Of a stretch of 64,000 nt of DNA, positions 7,360-19,695 are shown piece by piece (within the stretch, counting starts at the first letter, position 1; every line of letters begins with the position of its first letter). The stretch is taken from contig NZ_CP108882.1 of NCBI RefSeq assembly GCF_036347055.1, positions 2,369,001 through 2,433,000 of the forward strand, in the 5' to 3' direction. Under the pieces are notes generated by a model. That model had not been told where the DNA came from, did not search any database, and saw only the letters and a list, made by a program, of their open reading frames with translations. Position numbers and translations under genes: made by a program. The DNA is from Streptomyces sp. NBC_00820 (GTDB taxonomy: Bacteria > Actinomycetota > Actinomycetes > Streptomycetales > Streptomycetaceae).

Positions 7360-9150
7360 ATGGGAGATGCCCGAATTGTCGTGGAACAGCAGGCCGCGCC
7401 GGGGCGGCGGTCCAGCGGGGCCTCCCGTCGGGCCGCCGCGTTCGCCGTCTGGTATCTGCGGGCCGTCACGTTCGTCAACTTCCTCAGCGCGGTGTGGGTG
7501 TCGCTGGGCCAGGACGTGCGCCGGCACAACCAGGAAGACCTCTTCACGCCGTACCTGCTGACGGCGGGCTTCGCCTCGGGCGTGTTCACCGCGTTCCTGG
7601 CGATCACGATGCGCCGCCGCAAACGGGCCGCGTGGATTCTCAACCTGGTGCTGAGCGGCCTGTTCCTGGCTCTGTTCGCCTTCGCGATGGCGTTCCCGGA
7701 GATCCGGCGGTACGCGCAGAACTGGATCTCGCTGGTGCTGACGGCCGCCTTCGTGGCCGCGCTGCTGGCCGGGCGCCAGGAGTTCTACGCCAAGGGCGAC
7801 CGGTCCAACCCGCGGCTCGCCGCCACCGTGGCCGTCGTCGGCGGTCTCGCCGCGTCGCTGCTGGCCGCGCTGGTGGTGACGGTCACCAACCAGGCGCCGG
7901 ACGCGGCCCGTTCGACGTTCCTGGAACGCTGGCACTACGGCACCCTGCGTCTGGTGTCGGTGGCCGCCGACGAGTCCCGCTTCCCCGGGATCGACCCGCC
8001 CAACTGGGCCAACGTGGCCGTCAACGTCCTCAGTACGGCCCTGCTCCTCGCCGTCCTGTACGCCGCCTTCCGCTCCCGGCGTGCCGTCGACCCGCTCACC
8101 GAGGACGACGAGAAGCGGCTGCGGACGCTGCTGGACGGGCACGGCGAGCGGGACTCGCTCGGCTACTTCGCGCTGCGCCGGGAGAAGAGCGTGGTGTGGT
8201 CCCCCACCGGCAAGGCGGCGGTCGCCTACCGGGTGGTCGGCGGGGTGAGCCTGGCCTCCGGGGACCCGCTGGGCGACCCGGAGGCGTGGCCCGGGGCGAT
8301 CGTGCCGTGGCTCGCCGAGGCGCGGGCGCACGGGTGGATCCCGGCCGTGATGGGGGCGAGCGAGGAAGCGGGGACCATCTACGCCCGGCACGGTCTGGAC
8401 GCGCTGGAACTCGGTGACGAGGCGATCGTGGAGGTCGCCGAGTTCACGCTGGAGGGACGGGCGATGCGCACCGTCCGGCAGGCGTACAACCGGGTGAAAC
8501 GGGCCGGGTACCAGGTGCGGATCCGGCGCCACACGGACATCCCGGCGGACGAGATGGCGTACCTGATCGAGCGTGCGGACGACTGGCGGGACGGGGCGAC
8601 CGAGCGCGGGTTCAGCATGGCGCTCGGCCGGCTCGGGGACCCCGCGGACGGGCAGTGCGTGATGCTGGAGTGCACCGACGCCGACGGCAGACTGCGGGCG
8701 CTGCTGTCCTTCGTGCCGTGGGGGCCGCACGGGCTGTCCCTGGACCTGATGCGCCGGGACCGGGACTCCGACAACGGGCTGATGGAGTTCATGGTCCTCG
8801 ACCTGCTGCGGCGCGCCGGGGAGATCGGCGTCACGCAGGTCTCGCTCAACTTCGCGATGTTCCGGTCCGTCTTCGAACGCGGGGCGCGTCTCGGCGCGGG
8901 TCCGGTGCTGCGGCTGTGGCGGTCGCTGCTCAGCTTCTTCTCCCGCTGGTGGCAGATCGAGTCGCTGTACCGGGCCAACGCCAAGTACCGGCCCATCTGG
9001 GAGCCGCGGTTCCTGCTCTTCGAGAAGAGCGCGGACCTGCCGCGCATCGGGCTCGCCTCGGCGCGCGCGGAGGGCTTCCTGGCGACGGGACCCGTGGCAC
9101 CGGGGCTGCCGAAGTGGCTGCACCGCAGGCATCTGGACACGCACCGATAG
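7360..9150 (+). CDS. MprF-type aminoacyl-phosphatidylglycerol synthase (DUF2156/LPG_synthase_C)
   Basis: Predicted 596-residue membrane protein. About six transmembrane helices fill the first 260 residues, including FVNFLSAVWVSL, YLLTAGFASGVFTAFLAI, LVLSGLFLALFAFAMAF and LAATVAVVGGLAASLLAAL. A cytoplasmic GNAT-like LPG-synthase domain follows (RREKSVVWSPTGKAAVAYRV, GASEEAGTIYARHGLDALELG, LSFVPWGPHGLSLDLMRRD). Enzymes of this class transfer an amino acid from aminoacyl-tRNA to phosphatidylglycerol, reducing surface charge. The membrane part is shorter than in full MprF flippase-synthases. ATG at 7360 has a weak upstream site. A rhomboid-like membrane gene follows 10 bases downstream, so they are probably co-transcribed. 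Confidence 0.88.
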   Translation: MGDARIVVEQQAAPGRRSSGASRRAAAFAVWYLRAVTFVNFLSAVWVSLGQDVRRHNQEDLFTPYLLTAGFASGVFTAFLAITMRRRKRAAWILNLVLSGLFLALFAFAMAFPEIRRYAQNWISLVLTAAFVAALLAGRQEFYAKGDRSNPRLAATVAVVGGLAASLLAALVVTVTNQAPDAARSTFLERWHYGTLRLVSVAADESRFPGIDPPNWANVAVNVLSTALLLAVLYAAFRSRRAVDPLTEDDEKRLRTLLDGHGERDSLGYFALRREKSVVWSPTGKAAVAYRVVGGVSLASGDPLGDPEAWPGAIVPWLAEARAHGWIPAVMGASEEAGTIYARHGLDALELGDEAIVEVAEFTLEGRAMRTVRQAYNRVKRAGYQVRIRRHTDIPADEMAYLIERADDWRDGATERGFSMALGRLGDPADGQCVMLECTDADGRLRALLSFVPWGPHGLSLDLMRRDRDSDNGLMEFMVLDLLRRAGEIGVTQVSLNFAMFRSVFERGARLGAGPVLRLWRSLLSFFSRWWQIESLYRANAKYRPIWEPRFLLFEKSADLPRIGLASARAEGFLATGPVAPGLPKWLHRRHLDTHR

Positions 9151-10710: not shown

Positions 10711-11496
10711 ATGCTCAGGACCTCCCCTCTCGACGGACTCCGCTTCGCCTTCGGCACCCTCACCGTGCTGCCCGTACGGGTACGCCGCTGGGACCGCGAG
10801 GCCGCACGCGGGGGCATGCTGACCGCCCCGGTGGCCGGACTGGTCGTCGGCGGCGCGGCGGCCGGCCTCGGGCTGCTGCTCCTGTTCCTGGGCGCCGGTC
10901 CGCTGCTCGCCGCCGTCGCCTCGGTCGCCGTACCCGCCGCGCTCACCCGGGGCCTGCACCTCGACGGGCTCGCCGACACCGCCGACGGGCTGGGCAGCGG
11001 GAAGCCGGCGGAGGACGCGCTGCGGATCATGAAGCAGTCGGACATCGGTCCGTTCGGGGTGATCACGCTGATGCTGACCCTGCTGGCCCAGGTCGCCGTG
11101 CTGGCGCAGCTGTACGACGGCTCCTGGGCGCGGGGCGCGCTCGCGGCGGTGACTTCGGCGGTCGCCGCCCGGCTGGCGCTCACCCTGGCCGCGCGCGCCG
11201 GAGTGCCGGCCGCCCGGCCCGAGGGGCTGGGGGCCGCGGTCGCCGGAGTGGTGCCGGTGCCGGGCGCGCTGGCCGTCGCGGCCGCCGTCACCCTCCTCGC
11301 GGCCGCCTGGGGCACGGTCTTCGGCCCCTACGGCCCGCCGCACACGGCGGCCGCGGTGCTGCTGGCCCTCGCCGCCGCCGAACTCCTGCTGCGCCGCTGC
11401 GTCCACCGCTTCGGCGGGGTCACCGGCGACGTCTTCGGCGCCCTCGCGGAGACGGCGGCGACGACGGCGCTGGTGGTGCTGGCGCTGGGTGGCTGA
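10711..11496 (+). CDS. cobS: Adenosylcobinamide-GDP ribazoletransferase (cobalamin synthase)
   Basis: CobS joins adenosylcobinamide-GDP with alpha-ribazole phosphate in the membrane, the last joining step of cobalamin synthesis. The 261-residue polytopic protein carries the metal-binding family motif RGLHLDGLADTADGLG at about residues 82-97, then KQSDIGPFGVITLMLTLL. Several Ala/Leu-rich helices follow. It begins MLRTSPLDGLRFAFGTLTVLPV, typical for the family. Together with CobU and CobT this completes nucleotide-loop assembly in the region, although the three genes are not one operon. Confidence 0.95.
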   Translation: MLRTSPLDGLRFAFGTLTVLPVRVRRWDREAARGGMLTAPVAGLVVGGAAAGLGLLLLFLGAGPLLAAVASVAVPAALTRGLHLDGLADTADGLGSGKPAEDALRIMKQSDIGPFGVITLMLTLLAQVAVLAQLYDGSWARGALAAVTSAVAARLALTLAARAGVPAARPEGLGAAVAGVVPVPGALAVAAAVTLLAAAWGTVFGPYGPPHTAAAVLLALAAAELLLRRCVHRFGGVTGDVFGALAETAATTALVVLALGG

Positions 11497-11621
11497 ACCG
11501 GCCTCACAGATCCCGTTCGGGGGCGCAATTCCGTAGGCACCGTTCCGGGTTGCGGTTCCGGGTCGCAGGGAGGCGGGTTGTCCCTCCCCGACTCCGGGCG
11601 GTCCGGGCGGCCGCGTCCGCC

Positions 11622-12275
11622 TCAGGGTGCGGGCGGGCCCACGCCGTGGGGCAGTGTGCCCCAGGGGTGGGCGCCCGCTCCCGGCACCGCGCAGTGCACG
11701 GCCGCGCCCCGCACCCGGGCCCCCTCCGCCACGTCGGCGCCGGGCGGGACGTCGTACACCAGATGGCACAGCCGCACGCCCGACGGGTAGCGCCGGGGCC
11801 GCGCGGGGGTGCTCCGGTACGCCGGCCAGGGGCCCTCGAAGGTGACCAGGAGGTCGGCGAGGGCCGCGTACGCCGGGTGCGGCGGAGTGCCGTGGTTGAA
11901 CGCGAGCGTGCCGCAGCCGAGGGTCCGGGCGGCCGCCGCCAGCCGCTCGTAGTACGGCAACTCGTCTGCCCCGGAGGACACTTGGTCCAGGAAGGCGCCC
12001 TGCGTTCCGTACCACTCGCGGTGGGTTCTCATCTCGCGTACGACGTCGTCGTGGGGCCGTGTGCCGTAGCCGGTGTCGGTGTAGCCGAGCAGCGTGACGC
12101 CCGCGCGCCGCAGCCGGACTGCGGTCGCGGCGAAGGCCTCGTCCGGGCGTTCGCCGGGGCCACTGGCCGGGTTGAGAACGACGCCGTACAGACGCGGCGC
12201 GGCCGCGAGGATCGCCGCCCACTCGGCCGGGCGGACCGACGGATGCTCGTAGTACGGGACCAGCAAGCTGTTCAT
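11622..12275 (-). CDS. Spherulin-4 (GH135-type) family protein
   Basis: Predicted 217-residue TIM-barrel-like protein of the spherulin-4 family, which includes the fungal GH135 endo-alpha-1,4-galactosaminidases Sph3 and Ega3. Recognisable segments are LLVPYYEHPS, GVVLNPASGPGERPD, GVTLLGYTDTGYG, GAFLDQVSSGAD, LAFNHGT and VTFEGPW. At the position where fungal enzymes have an acidic pair, this protein has Asp97-Gln98, so activity may be altered. A candidate second acid is Glu147. No signal peptide is visible, which is odd for a polysaccharide hydrolase. ATG at 12275 overlaps the upstream stop as ATGA, giving tight coupling to the membrane protein gene. Confidence 0.85.
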   Translation of the reverse strand: MNSLLVPYYEHPSVRPAEWAAILAAAPRLYGVVLNPASGPGERPDEAFAATAVRLRRAGVTLLGYTDTGYGTRPHDDVVREMRTHREWYGTQGAFLDQVSSGADELPYYERLAAAARTLGCGTLAFNHGTPPHPAYAALADLLVTFEGPWPAYRSTPARPRRYPSGVRLCHLVYDVPPGADVAEGARVRGAAVHCAVPGAGAHPWGTLPHGVGPPAP

Positions 12276-13930
12276 CGGTGCGCCGTCGCCCTTCCCAGCA
12301 GGCCCCGGGCCAGGGCGACCTGGACGGTGGCCGCGGCCGCGTACACGGCGAGGCCGACGAGGCGCGGATCGCCCGCGTGGGTGAGCAGCGCCAGCGTCTG
12401 GGCGAGGGCCGCGGCACAGCACACCGCGGCGGCACCGAGCACGGCACCGAAGGACTGGAGCAGCAGCCCGGTCCACAGCACCACACCGAGCGCGAGCAGC
12501 CCGGCAAGGCGGACACCGGTCGGCAGGGGGGAATGCGGCCAGGACGCGGCGGCGACCACGGCCAGGACGAGCAGGGCGGCCAGGTAGCCGAAGAGGCAGC
12601 GGGCCAGAGTGCGGCCCAGGGTCCGGCGGAACGTCCGCGCCGTCCCGCTCGCCCGCAGGGCGGCCAGGCCTCCGCTGCGGAAGCGGTACAGCAGCCATTC
12701 GGCGGGCCCCATGCTGAGCGTGAGCGCCACGGCCTCCGGCGCGGCGACCGCGCTGCGCTCCGCCCCGGTCAGGACGTCACCGAGGCCCGCGTACAGCACG
12801 AGGACACCGCTGCCGAGCCCGAAGACCGCGTAAGGCAGGGAGGACAGCAGCCGGGGACCCGGCCCCCCGCCCCGCACCGGCCTGACGGCGGGGAGCAGCG
12901 CGGTGACCGGCGCGGCGAGAACCCCGGCCCACCGCCTGACGAACGGCCCCGGCCGGGGTGCGGCGCAGCTTTCGGGGGTCCGGCTCGGGGTGGGGGGCGC
13001 GCCGAGGCGGCCGAAGGGAAGCAGGGCGGTGAGGCCGGCCGGCCAGTGCCCCGTGGGGCGGGGTGCGGTGGGGCGGGCGGTCCGGGGGCCGGCGCCCGGT
13101 CTGCGCAGCGCCGGGGCGACTTCGAGGAAGCCGAGGGTGGCGACGGCGGCGGTGGAGGTCACCAGGAGGAGCAGGCGGGGCTGGTCCGGGAGCGGGTGGG
13201 CCAGGGCGAGGAGGGCGCCTGCCGTCAGCGGGGTCAGGGCGGCCAGGAGGGCCCGCTCGCGGCCCATGACCAGCAGGACCCCGGAGGCGCCCAGGTAGCA
13301 GGACTGGCCGGCGGCGAACGCCGCGGCGGCCGGGTGGGCGGCGCCCCCCACGGGGAGGGCGGCCAGGGCGCCGAGCAGCATGCCCGCCGGGGTGCCGACG
13401 AGCAGGCAGCGGCGGGCCGCCGGGCGGTCGCCGAGGCCCAGCCAGGCGTAGGCGCGGTGGGCCAGACCCTGGTTCCAGGCCCAGCCGCACAGCGCGCTCG
13501 CCAGCAGGGTGAGGGTTCCAGCCGGCAGGTCGAAGGCGTCGCGCGGGCCGGCGAGCAGCGGGGCGCCCAGCACGTAGGCGAAGCCGGGGAGCGCGAAGAC
13601 CAGGCCGCGCAGCAGGCAGCCGAGGAGACCGGCCCGCCAGGGGTCGGCGGGTGTGCCCTCGGGCTCGGGGTGGCGGCGCGGGATGCGGTCGTACAACTCC
13701 TCTGCGAGGGCGAAGGAGTTGAGGACGCCGTAGCGCTCGCGTATCTGGTCGTCCGAGAGGCCGTCGGACTCCAGCAGGGCCGCCACCTCGTCGGGGTGGA
13801 CGGCGGCGGATACGAACGTGTCGAGTTCGCGGGCCAGTTCGTCGATCGGGTCGGGCCGCTCCGGGTCCGGGCGCCGCCGCTGGTGCGGGATGCCCGGCAG
13901 GGTGGCGGGCGTGCGCAGATCCTCGCTCAC
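12272..13930 (-). CDS. Polytopic membrane protein of the exopolysaccharide operon
   Basis: A 552-residue protein. Roughly 100 hydrophilic residues (HPDEVAALLESDGLSDDQIRERYGV) precede ten or more hydrophobic segments, split by Pro/Arg-rich loops near residues 275-340. I recognise no family. By position, between a PelF-like glycosyltransferase and a spherulin-type hydrolase, it is a candidate polymer export or scaffold component. That role is inference. GTG at 13930 overlaps the glycosyltransferase stop as GTGA, and its own stop overlaps the next start as ATGA. The three genes are therefore translationally coupled. Confidence 0.8.
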   Translation of the reverse strand: MSEDLRTPATLPGIPHQRRRPDPERPDPIDELARELDTFVSAAVHPDEVAALLESDGLSDDQIRERYGVLNSFALAEELYDRIPRRHPEPEGTPADPWRAGLLGCLLRGLVFALPGFAYVLGAPLLAGPRDAFDLPAGTLTLLASALCGWAWNQGLAHRAYAWLGLGDRPAARRCLLVGTPAGMLLGALAALPVGGAAHPAAAAFAAGQSCYLGASGVLLVMGRERALLAALTPLTAGALLALAHPLPDQPRLLLLVTSTAAVATLGFLEVAPALRRPGAGPRTARPTAPRPTGHWPAGLTALLPFGRLGAPPTPSRTPESCAAPRPGPFVRRWAGVLAAPVTALLPAVRPVRGGGPGPRLLSSLPYAVFGLGSGVLVLYAGLGDVLTGAERSAVAAPEAVALTLSMGPAEWLLYRFRSGGLAALRASGTARTFRRTLGRTLARCLFGYLAALLVLAVVAAASWPHSPLPTGVRLAGLLALGVVLWTGLLLQSFGAVLGAAAVCCAAALAQTLALLTHAGDPRLVGLAVYAAAATVQVALARGLLGRATAHR

Positions 13931-15447
13931 CAGCCGGTCCCGTCCGTCGCGACCGCCGCGTACCAGGGGTCGCGCAGTTCGGCGGTCCAGTCGTCGACCG
14001 TCTCGACGGTGGGCTCGTAGACCTCGGGAAGGCCGGCGAGTTCCTGGTAGATGGTGCGGAAGTTGTCGACCGAGCGGCGCAGGGTGAACCGGTCGATCAC
14101 GCGCTGTCGGGCCGACTCCCCCAGCCCCAGGCGCCGTTCGTCGTCCCGGAGCAGGGTCAGGGCGGCGGCGGCCATCTTCTCCGGTTCGCGCGGCGGGACG
14201 ACGAGGCCGGTGTCGCCGACGGCCTCGCGGACCCCGCCGACGTCGGTCGAGACGGTCGTACGGCCGCAGGACATGGCCTCGATGATCGAGAACGGGAAGC
14301 CCTCTGAGATGGAGGAGAGCAGCACGAGGTGGCCGGCCGCGTAGGCGCGCCAGACCTCGGTGATGCGGCCCTCGAAGGTGACGCCGTCACGGACGCCGAG
14401 TTCGGCGGCGAGTTTCTCCAGGCGGGTGGCGTAGGCCTCGCCGCCGGGCGGGACCGGGCCGAACAACCGCAGCCTGGTCGCGGGGAGTTCGGCGCGGACG
14501 AGGGCGTAGGCGCGCAGCAGGGTCTCCAGGTCCTTGATGGGGTCGACGCGGCCGCACCAGGTCAGGGTGGGCACGTCCGGCTCGGGGCCCGCGTGCGGGA
14601 AGGCGTGCGGGTCGACGCCGTTGTAGACCGTGCGGATGCGGCCGGCGTCGGCGCCGCCGCGCTCCTCCCAGCGGCGGTTGTACTGGTTGCAGGGGGTGAT
14701 CAGGTCGGCGGCGCGGTAGCCGTGGGAGTTCAGCGCGCGGTAGAAGCCGAGCAGGAACGCCTTCACGGGCCAGCGGTGTCCGTCGCCCAGCTGCCCCAGA
14801 TAGCGTTCGCGCAGGTAGATGCCGTGCTCGGTGAGCAGGAACGGCACTCCGTCGAGGTGGTGCGCGGCGAGCGCGGGCAGGGTCGCCAGGCCGCTGCTGA
14901 CGGCGTGCGCCACCGAGTCCTCGGGGATGCGCACACTCAGCGGGCGCAGGGCGTGTTCGAGCAGGTCGGCGGCGGTGAGGGCGTCGTGCACGGTCGGGCG
15001 GGCCGCGGCCGTCGACAGGTGCGGCATGGTCCAGATCCACTGCAGCGAGCGCAGCGCCTGTTCGGTGCGCAGGGCGGCCGGCAGCCATCCCGCACGGGCG
15101 ATGCGGGCGAGTTCGCCCAGCGCGCCGCCGAAGTCGCAGCGGGACTCGGGGTCCAGAAAGGACAGCAGGAGACGCTCGTAGGCGTCGGTGAAGCGGCGCC
15201 GGGCCCTGCCGTAGGGGGCGCGGGCGCGGCCGGGGCGCGGGCCCCAGGTGGGCACGGTGGTGTGCCGGCGGACGTTCGGCGGCAGCTCCCAGGTCACGGG
15301 TTCGCGGCCGCTGCCGGTGAGTGAGACGAGATGGAAGCTCACCTCCGGCATGCCCTTGACGAGCTGGTCGCACCAGGTGCTGACCCCGCCGTGGACGTGC
15401 GGGTAGGTGCCTTCGGTGAGCATGGTGACGTGACGGCCGGTGCGCAT
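13927..15447 (-). CDS. PelF-like GT4 glycosyltransferase
   Basis: Predicted 506-residue cytoplasmic GT-B glycosyltransferase. The N-terminus (MLTEGTYPHVHGGVSTWCDQL) and the middle segment (LLTEHGIYLRERYL) are characteristic of PelF, the synthase-type GT4 enzyme of Pel polysaccharide. The C-terminal donor domain has VYNGVD, WCGRVDPIKDLETLLRA and the EX7E motif in SEGFPFSIIEAMSCG. ATG at 15447 follows AGGGGGGAT about 11 bases upstream. Longer in-frame extensions enter the foldback element and look non-coding. It is the first gene of a three-gene coupled group downstream of the Agd3-like gene. Donor sugar not determinable here; UDP-hexosamine is a reasonable guess. Confidence 0.9.
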   Translation of the reverse strand: MRTGRHVTMLTEGTYPHVHGGVSTWCDQLVKGMPEVSFHLVSLTGSGREPVTWELPPNVRRHTTVPTWGPRPGRARAPYGRARRRFTDAYERLLLSFLDPESRCDFGGALGELARIARAGWLPAALRTEQALRSLQWIWTMPHLSTAAARPTVHDALTAADLLEHALRPLSVRIPEDSVAHAVSSGLATLPALAAHHLDGVPFLLTEHGIYLRERYLGQLGDGHRWPVKAFLLGFYRALNSHGYRAADLITPCNQYNRRWEERGGADAGRIRTVYNGVDPHAFPHAGPEPDVPTLTWCGRVDPIKDLETLLRAYALVRAELPATRLRLFGPVPPGGEAYATRLEKLAAELGVRDGVTFEGRITEVWRAYAAGHLVLLSSISEGFPFSIIEAMSCGRTTVSTDVGGVREAVGDTGLVVPPREPEKMAAAALTLLRDDERRLGLGESARQRVIDRFTLRRSVDNFRTIYQELAGLPEVYEPTVETVDDWTAELRDPWYAAVATDGTGW

Positions 15448-15524
15448 GCTTGCGCGGATCCCCCCTGTGATGCGGATGACATGCGGGAACTGCGGCCCGG
15501 AACCCGGCTGTGGGTCCGCCGGGT

Positions 15525-15679
15525 CGTGTCCGACGATTCGCCTCGGATCAGCGGGCGGCGTCCGGTGCGTGCGTCGCAGGGCGGAGGATCGCCCGCGTAC
15601 TGGACGTACGCGGGCGATCCGGCAACGCGGCGAGGTGCCGTGCCGGGCGTCGCCCGCCCGGCGGGAGTCGTCGGACACG
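15525..15679. mobile_element. Foldback (MITE-like) element, copy B
   Basis: A 155-base element with 12-base terminal inverted repeats (CGTGTCCGACGA and its complement). Inside is a perfect 15-base stem at 15586-15600 and 15606-15620 (GGATCGCCCGCGTAC) around a TGGAC loop. The outer inner arms also pair, largely through G-U-compatible changes. The core closely matches the element at 29027-29194 in the same orientation, although the terminal repeats differ. It lies between the Agd3-like gene and the glycosyltransferase gene and could act as a terminator or a processing signal. Confidence 0.7.
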
Positions 15680-15744
15680 GCCCGGGGCCGGACGCGCGGT
15701 TCCCCGGCGCCCCTCAGGGCACTGTCGGTGCTGCCCGTCGGCCG

Positions 15745-17781
15745 CTACGGCAGCTTGAGCGTGAGTGCGGACTGCAGGGTGCCCGGCGTTCCCCAGGCCG
15801 AGCGCAGGCCCGCGTACGACGTCCCGAACGCGCTGGAGGTGAGCAGGAACTGCTGCTTGGTGCCCTCGGGCACCGTGACCGGGATCTGGGTGCCGGACGG
15901 CGCGGTGACCGTGACGGTGTTGCCGATGCGGTAGGCGGTGACCTTGCCGCCGTCCAGCGCCGCCTGCCACTTGGCCCGGTTCTGCAGTTCGGCGCCGATG
16001 GCGCTCTGGCGCAGGTTGACGATCGGGGTGTTGGCCGCGAACAGCGCCTGGTAGTCGGCGAGGACACGGTCCAGGACCGGGTAGAGGAGGCGGTCCTCGG
16101 CCAGGTTGGACTGGTGGGCGTAGTGCGGGCGCGGATCGTTGCTCAGCACGTGCCCGAGGTCGGTGTGGGCCTCGGTGGGCACGATGTGGCCGGTGAAACC
16201 GGTGTCCGTGTCCAGCGGTGCGCCGAGGCAGGTCGAGGTCGCGTTGTTCTCGCAGATCCCGCTGCCGCCGTCGGCCTCGGAGGTGTAGATCCAGTTGTAC
16301 TCGTCGGCCATCTCGGCCTTGGTGCCCACGTTGTAGTACACGTTCATCGGGTACCGCGGCACGGTCAGCGTGCTGCTGCCAACGGTCCGCTGCTCGGATT
16401 CGCGGGAGTTGTCCGAGGCGGTCCACTTCACGCCGTTGGAAGCCAGGGCGGGCCCGAGGTTGGGGTTGTCCTGCGGCTGCTGCGGGAGGGTCTTCAGCCC
16501 GGAGTGCTCACCGGTGACCAGTTCGCTGCGGTCCAGGGAAAGTCCGTGCTGGGAGGCCCAGTTGTTGTTGTTCGAGATCTCCCCGGAGATGTCGGAGCGG
16601 CTCACCCACTTCGTCGAGCCGTCGGGGTTCTTCGCGCAGGCCCACGGCACGGTCGAGGTGTCCTGGACGCAGCCGAGGAACATGTGGGTGTAAGTGTGGT
16701 TCACCCAGCGGTACTTGGCCTTGTCCTTGAGGAGCTGGTCGGCCAGCGCGTCGGTGCCGCCGTGCTCGCTCTTCCACTCCTCGCCGGCGCCCGCGTTGAA
16801 GACCATGTCCAGGGTGAGGCCGTGGCTCTGCTGCCACGCGGCCGCGTACTGGGCGTCGGCCGGTGTCATCCGGATCGGCGTCTCGGTGTCGTCACCGCCG
16901 CCCGCGCAGTCGATGTCCCCGGGCGTGCAGTTGCGGGCGGCGTCCCAGCGGGCGTCGGGGGCGAAGACGTCGTCCACGTGGACGGCGAAGTAGTTGCGGG
17001 CCTGCCCGAGGTGCACACCCTGGGTCAGCCACTCCACGATGCCGCGCGCCAGCACCCGGAACTGCTGCTGGTACTGGTTGTAGGCGAAGGTCACCACCAG
17101 TTCGCGGCGCCCGTCGTGGGCGTACTCGCCGAGCAGGCTGCCGTTGCCCGTGCCGCCCGGCACGGGGGCGTCGACATAGCTGGTGTAGCCGGTGCGGGGC
17201 TGGGCTATGAAGCCGTAACTCTCCTGGACCGAGGGCGAGTTGTCCTCGAAGGAGAAGCCGCCGGCCAGGTATCCGAAGGGGCCCGCCCGGCCGGCCGTGC
17301 TGACGGTGGCCGGACGTCCGTCGAGGCCACCCGCGTAGCCGTTGCTGTCGGTGTAGTCGAGGCCGACCTCGGGGTGCGCCCAGGTGTAGGCGTCGACCTG
17401 CGGGATGCCGTACGTCTTCTCGTACGCCTCCAGGGCCGTCTGCTCGGCGGATCCGGCGCCGAACGGGGCCTCGTTCGGCAGCACCACGCCCTGGAACTTG
17501 GCGCGGGGCCGCCCGCCGACCGTGTCGCTCAGGAAGGCGGCGTTGATGGCGGGGCGACCGGAGTCGCCCAGGTCGACCCGGGTGTACGGGATGCCCTCGC
17601 TCCGCAGCTGCGCGGCGATCGCGCCGACGGAGCCGCCGTCGTCGTCGACCACGAGGACCCTGAGGTCGACGCGTGGGTCCGTCGCGGCCGAGGCCGCGGG
17701 CGCGGCGATCCCCAGGCTGATCAGAGCGGCCGCCGTCGCCGTGACCGTCACGGTTCTCCGGCGGTGCGCGCGATAACTCAT
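15745..17781 (-). CDS. Secreted Agd3-like exopolysaccharide deacetylase (CE18-type)
   Basis: Predicted 678-residue secreted protein. A signal peptide (HRRRTVTVTATAAALISLGI, cleavage near ASAATD) starts at ATG 17781, which follows GGGGAGG eight bases upstream. An N-terminal carbohydrate-binding-like domain (RVLVVDDDGG, FQGVVLPNEAPFG) precedes a NodB-type deacetylase domain. That domain has the double Asp of motif 1 in YFAVHVDDVFAPD (Asp270-271) and the metal-binding His pair in VNHTYTHMF (His362, His366). A C-terminal beta domain follows. This architecture matches Agd3, the fungal galactosaminogalactan N-deacetylase. It is the first gene of the minus-strand exopolysaccharide set. Confidence 0.87.
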   Translation of the reverse strand: MSYRAHRRRTVTVTATAAALISLGIAAPAASAATDPRVDLRVLVVDDDGGSVGAIAAQLRSEGIPYTRVDLGDSGRPAINAAFLSDTVGGRPRAKFQGVVLPNEAPFGAGSAEQTALEAYEKTYGIPQVDAYTWAHPEVGLDYTDSNGYAGGLDGRPATVSTAGRAGPFGYLAGGFSFEDNSPSVQESYGFIAQPRTGYTSYVDAPVPGGTGNGSLLGEYAHDGRRELVVTFAYNQYQQQFRVLARGIVEWLTQGVHLGQARNYFAVHVDDVFAPDARWDAARNCTPGDIDCAGGGDDTETPIRMTPADAQYAAAWQQSHGLTLDMVFNAGAGEEWKSEHGGTDALADQLLKDKAKYRWVNHTYTHMFLGCVQDTSTVPWACAKNPDGSTKWVSRSDISGEISNNNNWASQHGLSLDRSELVTGEHSGLKTLPQQPQDNPNLGPALASNGVKWTASDNSRESEQRTVGSSTLTVPRYPMNVYYNVGTKAEMADEYNWIYTSEADGGSGICENNATSTCLGAPLDTDTGFTGHIVPTEAHTDLGHVLSNDPRPHYAHQSNLAEDRLLYPVLDRVLADYQALFAANTPIVNLRQSAIGAELQNRAKWQAALDGGKVTAYRIGNTVTVTAPSGTQIPVTVPEGTKQQFLLTSSAFGTSYAGLRSAWGTPGTLQSALTLKLP

Positions 17782-18162: not shown

Positions 18163-19695
18163 GTGACTGCTCTGACTCTCAGCACCGCCGCGGCGCCCGG
18201 CCTGCGGGCCGACGCGATCGTCGTCGGTGTCGCCAAGGGCTCGGCGTCCAAGTCTGGGGACCTTGTCGTCGCGCCAGGCGCCGAGGCCGTGGACCACGCG
18301 TACGACGGCAGGCTCGCCGGCCTCCTGGAGACCCTCGGCGCCTCGGGTGCCGAGGGCGAGCTGACGAAGCTGCCCGCCCCGGCCGGCTTCAAGGCACCGC
18401 TCGTGGTGGCGGTGGGCCTGGGCGCGGAGCCCGGCGAGGACGCCGGGTACGACACCGAGGCGCTGCGCAGGGCCGCCGGTGTGGCCGCGCGTGCCCTGGC
18501 CGGCTCGAAGAAGGCCGCGTTCGCGCTGCCCGTCGAGGACTCCGGTGCCGTCGGCGCGATCGCCGAGGGCGTGCTGCTCGGCGCCTACGCCTTCGACGCG
18601 TACAAGGAGGGCGACGCCAAGGCCAAGAACGGCAAGGCGCCGCTGGGCGAGGCCGCGCTGCTCGGCGGCAAGCCGCGCGACGCCGCCCACAAGGACGCCC
18701 TGGCCCGGGCCGTCGCGGTCGCCGAGGAGCTGAACCGCGCCCGCGACCTGGTCAACACCCCGCCGAACGACCTCACCCCGGAGGCGTTCGCCGCCGTCGC
18801 CCAGGCCGCGGCCAAGGAGCACGGCATCAAGGTGCAGGTGCTCGACGACAAGGCGCTGACCAAGGGCGGCTACGGCGGCATCCTCGGCGTCGGCGGTGGC
18901 TCGGAGGCCAAGCCGCGCCTGGTCAAGCTGTCGTACACGCACCCGGAGGCGGACAAGCACCTCGCCTTCGTCGGCAAGGGCATCACCTACGACTCGGGCG
19001 GCATCTCCCTCAAGCCGGCCGGCCACAACGAGACGATGAAGTGCGACATGGCCGGTGCCGCCGCCGTGTTCGCGGCGGTCGTCGCCGCGGCGCGGATCGG
19101 CCTGAAGGTCAACGTCACCGGCTGGCTGGCGCTGGCCGAGAACATGCCGTCCGGCTCCGCCGTGCGCCCGGGTGACGTGCTGCGCATGTTCAGCGGCAAG
19201 ACCGTCGAGGTCCTCAACACCGACGCCGAGGGCCGGCTGGTGCTCGCGGACGCGCTGTGGGCGGCCTCCGCGGAGGAGCCGGACGCGATCGTGGACGTCG
19301 CCACGCTGACCGGCGCGATGATGCTGGCGCTGGGCAGCCGGACGTTCGGTGTCATGGCGAACGACGACGCGTTCCGCACCGCCCTGCACGAGGCGGCCGA
19401 GGAGGTCGGCGAGCCGGCGTGGCCGATGCCGCTGCCGGAGCACCTGCGCAAGGGCATGGACTCCTCCGTCGCCGACATCGCGAACATGGGTGAGCGGATG
19501 GGCGGCGGCCTGGTCGCCGGTCTGTTCCTGCGCGAGTTCGTCGCCGACGGGATCACGTGGGCGCACCTGGACATCGCCGGCCCCGCCTTCAACGAGGGCG
19601 GCGCCTTCGGCTACACGCCCAAGGGCGGTACGGGTACGGCTGTGCGGACGCTGGTGCGCCTCGCCGAACTGACGGCCGCGGGCGAGCTGGGCTGA
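18163..19695 (+). CDS. pepA: Leucyl aminopeptidase (M17 family)
   Basis: Cytoplasmic dimetal aminopeptidase of 510 residues that removes N-terminal amino acids during peptide turnover. The M17 signature NTDAEGRL is at residues 352-359. The other metal-site segments GKGITYDSGGISLKP and MKCDMAGAAAV are intact, and the length is normal. GTG at 18163 is chosen because the sequence that follows (TALTLSTAAAPGLRADAIVVG) is family-like. It is divergent from the Agd3-like gene and upstream of lpdA, the usual Streptomyces arrangement. A strong stem-loop follows it. Confidence 0.96.
   Translation: MTALTLSTAAAPGLRADAIVVGVAKGSASKSGDLVVAPGAEAVDHAYDGRLAGLLETLGASGAEGELTKLPAPAGFKAPLVVAVGLGAEPGEDAGYDTEALRRAAGVAARALAGSKKAAFALPVEDSGAVGAIAEGVLLGAYAFDAYKEGDAKAKNGKAPLGEAALLGGKPRDAAHKDALARAVAVAEELNRARDLVNTPPNDLTPEAFAAVAQAAAKEHGIKVQVLDDKALTKGGYGGILGVGGGSEAKPRLVKLSYTHPEADKHLAFVGKGITYDSGGISLKPAGHNETMKCDMAGAAAVFAAVVAAARIGLKVNVTGWLALAENMPSGSAVRPGDVLRMFSGKTVEVLNTDAEGRLVLADALWAASAEEPDAIVDVATLTGAMMLALGSRTFGVMANDDAFRTALHEAAEEVGEPAWPMPLPEHLRKGMDSSVADIANMGERMGGGLVAGLFLREFVADGITWAHLDIAGPAFNEGGAFGYTPKGGTGTAVRTLVRLAELTAAGELG

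Follow-up and report, generated by a model that had tools for sequence, protein, structure and literature searches.

Systems close to the locus described here include the fungal galactosaminogalactan (GAG) cluster, comprising uge3, gtb3, agd3, ega3 and sph3, and the Gram-positive pel operon of Bacillus cereus, pelDEADAFG (PMC7112168, PMC13254593). Both Agd3 and B. cereus PelADA deacetylate α-1,4-GalNAc, and PelF polymerizes Pel from UDP-GalNAc (PMC7229062, PMC13254593); PelADA, a functionally similar deacetylase, is now placed in CE26 (PMC13254593). Agd3 homologues were reported from 45 bacterial species by Bamford et al. in 2020, and 30 of the 35 homologues in their tree are encoded within or close to operons of carbohydrate-active enzymes (PMC7229062). 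In Streptomyces, MatAB is linked to the surface polysaccharide PNAG and to hyphal aggregation (PMC5972031), and decades-old reports of a Streptomyces griseus endo-galactosaminidase and of galactosamine in Streptomyces walls are cited in PMC7229062. The presumed machinery for a GAG- or Pel-like cationic polymer in a filamentous actinomycete is identified here. We found no experiment on these Streptomyces proteins in the open-licence PMC literature searched.

Results

The window, a 64,000-nucleotide stretch of the 8.1 Mb, single-contig genome of Streptomyces sp. NBC_00820, contains four collinear minus-strand genes at 11622..17781 (locus A), bounded by two plus-strand genes, the convergent cobS (10711..11496) and the divergent pepA, which encodes a leucine aminopeptidase (18163..19695). 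The first gene (15745..17781; ATG at 17781, stop at 15745) encodes a 678-residue Agd3-like secreted polysaccharide deacetylase of the CBM87 plus CE18 type. It is followed by a gene for a PelF-like GT4 glycosyltransferase (13927..15447), starting at ATG 15447 with an RBS-like sequence and having an alternative GTG at 15678, by a gene for a 552-residue polytopic membrane protein and putative polymer exporter (12272..13930; GTG 13930), and by a gene for a 217-residue spherulin-4 or GH135-type TIM barrel (11622..12275; ATG 12275). The last three genes are joined by overlaps of stop and start codons, GTGA at 13927..13930 and ATGA at 12272..12275, just as an earlier note on this DNA had described. 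That note had also proposed a single four-gene operon. The genes are indeed collinear, but 297 nt lie between agd3 and the ATG of the transferase gene, and they contain a perfect 15-bp GC-rich hairpin (15586..15620, minus strand) that resembles a terminator, suggesting that the arrangement may be 1+3, with agd3 as its own transcription unit.

The agd3-like, transferase and membrane genes passed a simple screen of GC content by codon position. The spherulin-4 gene was missing from the screen's list, probably because its open frame (11622-12698) includes out-of-frame sequence of the preceding gene: the frame stays open upstream to ATG 12698, and the extra stretch is Arg/Pro-rich and overlaps the membrane gene. 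Elsewhere in the window, 7360-9150 carries an LPG_synthase_C and tRNA-synt_2_TM region and encodes a lysyl-phosphatidylglycerol-synthase-like membrane protein.

The Agd3-like protein has a Sec-type signal peptide, judged by eye. Its match to the Pfam model Agd3_CE (PF25115) scored 25.6 bits (E 7.4e-06), slightly below the cut-off of 27.6; the newer model PF25115.2 was precomputed for this protein. PDB searches with the single sequence (phmmer) and with a narrow profile (A2) gave no matches. A further profile (A3) retrieved Agd3 itself, 6NWZ, with an E value of 2.5e-17, the next row being heparan N-deacetylase/N-sulfotransferase at 0.33, and 6NWZ was also the top structural row for a low-confidence structure model of the protein. 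Among ten diverse Agd3-like sequences, D270 and D271 (CM1, DD), H362 and H366 (CM2, HxxxH) and H556 (CM4) were invariant, and R476 (CM3, Arg) was kept in nine. The profile comparison aligns Agd3 with the regions of CM1, CM3 and CM4; CM2 was assigned by motif alone. By family, the protein would be a CE18-type deacetylase acting on an α-1,4-GalNAc-type polymer.

The transferase scored 190.3 bits against PF11997 and 166.8 bits against the NCBIfam PelF model (NF038011, cut-off 100), and has an EX7E motif at residues 382-390 (SEGFPFSIIE from 381). The spherulin-4 protein matched PF12138 with 102.2 bits (cut-off 30.2, E 4.3e-29); its relative with known structure is the spherulin-4 5c5g (E 3.5e-09), with whose Asp and Glu its D97 and E147 align (FFDE/FEA). 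These results uphold the relationships first proposed for the three proteins, to CE18/CBM87, PelF-like GT4 and GH135, together with the HVDD (268-271) and HTYTH (362-366) motifs of the deacetylase, both at the positions given.

We take the catalytic Asp of Sph3 to be Asp166. The catalytic pair is printed as Asp196/Glu222 in PMC12054363, which identifies 5c5g as Aspergillus clavatus Sph3. D97 and E147 were kept in all 62 A-type spherulins, the window's included, and the residue after the catalytic Asp was Gln in all 62, as against Glu in Sph3. Both catalytic residues were likewise kept in nine of nine spherulins closest to that of a second locus, B, and in eight spherulins of a third type, C, the Asp was kept in six and the Glu in none. 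The phrase 'spherulation-specific family' proteins occurs in a paper on Atacama soil viruses (PMC8269230).

Judged by eye and by hydropathy, the window's spherulin-4 has no recognisable signal peptide or membrane anchor, and its start coincides with the first barrel strand. When the start codons of relatives were picked nearest the expected place and localisation was judged in the same way, 3 of 78 spherulins had a strongly hydrophobic segment close to the start, each time inside the barrel. Because signal-like starts are missing and the rare hydrophobic stretches fall within the barrel, the operon spherulin-4 proteins are probably cytosolic, which speaks against the trimming of polymer outside the cell that had been assigned to this protein. 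The location is not general to the spherulin-4 family, since a genome of another family encodes, near its operon, a second spherulin-4 whose start resembles a signal peptide (L160, 6704-7951). A likelier outside enzyme is the GH114 lipoprotein of most relatives, which is missing at the window locus.

The membrane protein has an N-terminal helical domain (residues ~28-82) followed by 12 TM helices arranged 6+6. This short domain carries no Pfam name and is the portion of the exporter that identifies all three locus types in sequence searches. The predicted fold was MATE/MOP, with 12 TM helices in two bundles; 49 of the 50 structural matches listed were described as MATE, MOP, WzxE or MurJ, and the remaining one, 5c6n, was described merely as 'protein A'. 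No family scored above its cut-off, ABC2_membrane (E 0.052) being the only weak match, and the PelG Pfam model gave no match. In the whole genome no protein exceeded the PelG (PF16933) cut-off of 29, the best match, 28.8 bits, lying elsewhere, and hhalign of the membrane protein against a PelG alignment of just two sequences gave a Prob of 0.7% and an E value of 0.08. The proposed mirroring of Pel is limited to PelF and the predicted MOP-fold exporter, with no PelG match over the cut-off in this genome. As for the proposed role, the predicted fold suits export, and the protein could export the polymer chain. MOP folds also flip lipid-linked sugars. It is conceivable, and in our view quite unlikely, that the product is a lipid-linked or wall-attached glycan instead of a free exopolysaccharide, the GT4 enzyme building on a lipid carrier and the MOP protein flipping the resulting lipid-linked chain, which would then be passed to the cell wall.

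Conservation was examined by scanning contigs with an alignment of close Agd3 relatives, which found 265 encoding stretches. We analysed the best 80. As 79 of these carry Streptomyces in their titles, the counts below apply to locus A within its own genus. In these 80, pepA invariably precedes agd3. After exclusion of ten loci where the contig ends too soon, 70 remained, and cobS follows in 67. After agd3, 42 loci have the transferase, exporter, spherulin and GH114 genes, in that order in all 42; 14 have the window's arrangement, lacking GH114; five have transferase, exporter and GH114, three transferase and exporter alone, one GH114 alone and five nothing. All four genes are therefore kept in 56 of 70 loci, and the deacetylase, transferase and membrane genes in 64, confirming the linkage. 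The transferase and exporter genes are jointly present in those 64 and jointly absent in the other six, never apart. GH114, scored with one query protein, was present in 48 loci, with PF03537 confirmed for two (299 and 292 bits); its place corresponds to the gap before cobS (11497..11621), where the window has none. The only GH114 match of the window's own genome (G000:C1:7436156-7436764) lies far from loci A, B and C. In one locus (L062) GH114 directly follows agd3 without transferase and exporter, both enzymes having been retained after loss of the synthase.

As these six loci show, agd3 is sometimes retained where the synthase pair is missing, alone in five and with GH114 in one, which would fit a secreted deacetylase (with GH114 where present) that mainly alters the GAG or Pel of other organisms, for example in fungal biofilms. 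However, the synthase pair adjoins agd3 in the other 64, and all six exceptional genomes have another exporter of the family, five full-length and one partial. Five of these exporters fall within the B band, compared with exporters in 8 of 19 same-genus genomes, type being assigned by score only. The presence of other exporters is itself a weak point, because 17 of the 19 same-genus genomes have some family exporter. We consider a role on foreign polymers highly improbable.

The own genome contains two paralogous loci. Locus B (C1 ~506,500-515,400; L034 8556-17366) comprises agd3, GT, exporter, LegB-like dehydratase, nucleotidyltransferase, SDR and spherulin-4 genes. Locus C (C1 ~5,307,400-5,312,900; L045 8356-13877) comprises GT, exporter-like, SDR and spherulin-4 genes; it adjoins moeZ, neither agd3 nor GH114 was seen there, and the catalytic Glu of its spherulin-4 is replaced. 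Exporters were surveyed in 196 genomes of the class, requested at >=90% completeness, and typed by the band in which their score fell. An A-type match occurred in 7 of the 19 same-genus genomes listed, a B-type match in 8 and a C-type match, the commonest, in 16, and 17 had at least one; neighbourhoods were read for 5 of 7, 6 of 8 and 8 of 16 matches, respectively. Outside the genus, exporter matches were rare, being seen in 6 of 177 genomes and weak in two of these. The four non-genus loci read (L158-L161) all have an agd3-like gene, which in L160 is on the opposite strand, and three each have GT, spherulin-4 and GH114. The one without GT, L161, is a short contig, and neither spherulin-4 nor GH114 was seen at L158.

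The sugar genes of locus B bear on the identity of the monomer. Its LegB-like 4,6-dehydratase scored 448.3 bits, slightly under the cut-off of 475, and proteins sharing 86-91% identity with it are encoded at five similar loci of other same-genus genomes. Its sugar-1-phosphate nucleotidyltransferase scored 138 bits against a mannose-1-phosphate guanylyltransferase model (cut-off 440) and matched 7d72 with E 2.3e-29. A Thr-Ser-Glu-Tyr-Gly motif, which marks dehydratases, was present in 7 of the 9 SDR proteins examined, namely six Streptomyces ones and that of L159; the exceptions were the L158 SDR, which could not be clearly assigned to either type, and that of L160, a GalE (334.7 bits, over the cut-off of 262.3). 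The LegB-like proteins suggest that the sister polymer made by locus B contains a 6-deoxy sugar, which makes the locus a candidate for synthesis of a 6-deoxyhexosamine polymer. Homology alone cannot identify the monomer, because locus B has these genes while its transferase is 63% identical to that of locus A. The same machinery might thus use another HexNAc, such as 6-deoxy-HexNAc (FucNAc or QuiNAc), in B and perhaps in A, an alternative that we rate as a minority possibility. Against it, locus A has no such sugar genes and is present in a genome without a B-type match (G245); the SDRs of L160 and L158 do not conform, and the assignment of locus B's second SDR is uncertain, with galE, far under cut-off, as its best NCBIfam match and GDP-6-deoxy-mannose reductase as just one of several PDB matches. 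Moreover, galactosamine polymers are the substrates of the GH114, GH135 and CE18 enzymes characterised so far (PMC12054363, PMC7229062). The galactosamine-type polymer first proposed has in its favour the kinship of CE18, PelF and GH135, which is of families only, and the GalE encoded at the non-Streptomyces locus L160; on the other side stand the LegB-like 6-deoxy-sugar genes of a paralogous locus.

Discussion

The evidence comprises gene anatomy, family kinship, catalytic-residue conservation, co-conservation and one predicted fold; locus A is real, conserved and probably functional. We favour, with reasonable though far from complete confidence, a small, synthase-dependent system for a GAG/Pel-like exopolysaccharide. 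Judged from sequence, its product is most likely a synthase-dependent, partly deacetylated hexosamine polymer, of GalN type by family kinship.

We infer the substrate, reactions, locations, coupling and physiological role as follows. The PelF-like GT4 enzyme would polymerize an N-acetylhexosamine, most likely from UDP-GalNAc, on the inner side of the membrane, and the MATE/MOP-fold protein would pass the chain outward, its N-terminal helical domain perhaps serving for docking. Outside, the secreted Agd3-like enzyme, whose gene may be transcribed on its own, would strip N-acetyl groups to give a cationic, adhesive polymer. The translationally coupled GH135-type enzyme would act intracellularly, probably cutting stalled or mis-exported chain beside the synthase, and the GH114 lipoprotein of most relatives, absent from the window strain's locus, would probably act at the outer face.

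A more speculative extension, which we hold to be doubtful, is that a Streptomyces cell runs up to three parallel minimal machines, each of PelF, MOP exporter and intracellular GH135. Locus A would then make a deacetylated GalN polymer; B a deacetylated 6-deoxy-hexosamine polymer, for example of fucosamine, with a new cationic chemistry; and C an undeacetylated glycan with GH135 as a non-catalytic partner. The N-terminal domain of the exporter would replace PelD/PelE, and the chain would be edited by cytosolic GH135. As a source of new polymer chemistry, locus B would be a candidate. Because locus A keeps its genomic position across the genus, it is straightforward to knock out, and a role in hyphal aggregation, if true, would bear on industrial morphology.

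Compared with the fungal GAG cluster, locus A has homologues of Agd3 and Sph3 (GH135), and the loci of relatives add one of GH114, the Ega3 family. In contrast to the fungal use of Gtb3, a PelF-like GT4 enzyme is paired here with a separate predicted MOP-fold protein, and the GH135 protein has no recognisable signal peptide or anchor, an intracellular GH135 being without counterpart in the fungal model. The five GAG functions (epimerase, synthase, CE18, GH114 and GH135) do not occur together, as neither an epimerase nor GH114 is among the four window genes. With the Gram-positive Pel operon the locus shares a PelF-type transferase, a predicted exporter and an extracellular deacetylase bearing a carbohydrate-binding domain at its N terminus (PMC7112168, PMC13254593). 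It differs in that the deacetylase profile finds Agd3 and the membrane protein lacks a PelG Pfam match, and no PelD or PelE is recognisable among the four window genes. The MatAB polymer, PNAG, differs from the one proposed here (PMC5972031).

The operons of Bamford et al. are the nearest counterparts, combining an Agd3 homologue, a cytoplasmic glycosyltransferase and a multi-spanning membrane protein, with spherulin-4 in some Actinobacteria and with GH114, which the window locus lacks (PMC7229062). Since operons of like make-up were reported in 2020, the claim of the earlier note that the combination is little described falls. Section 13 of PMC7229062 leaves the fold of the membrane protein unnamed. 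What is added to the 2020 outline is the exporter's predicted fold, an apparently intracellular GH135 protein and parallel, paralogous loci with different sugar genes.
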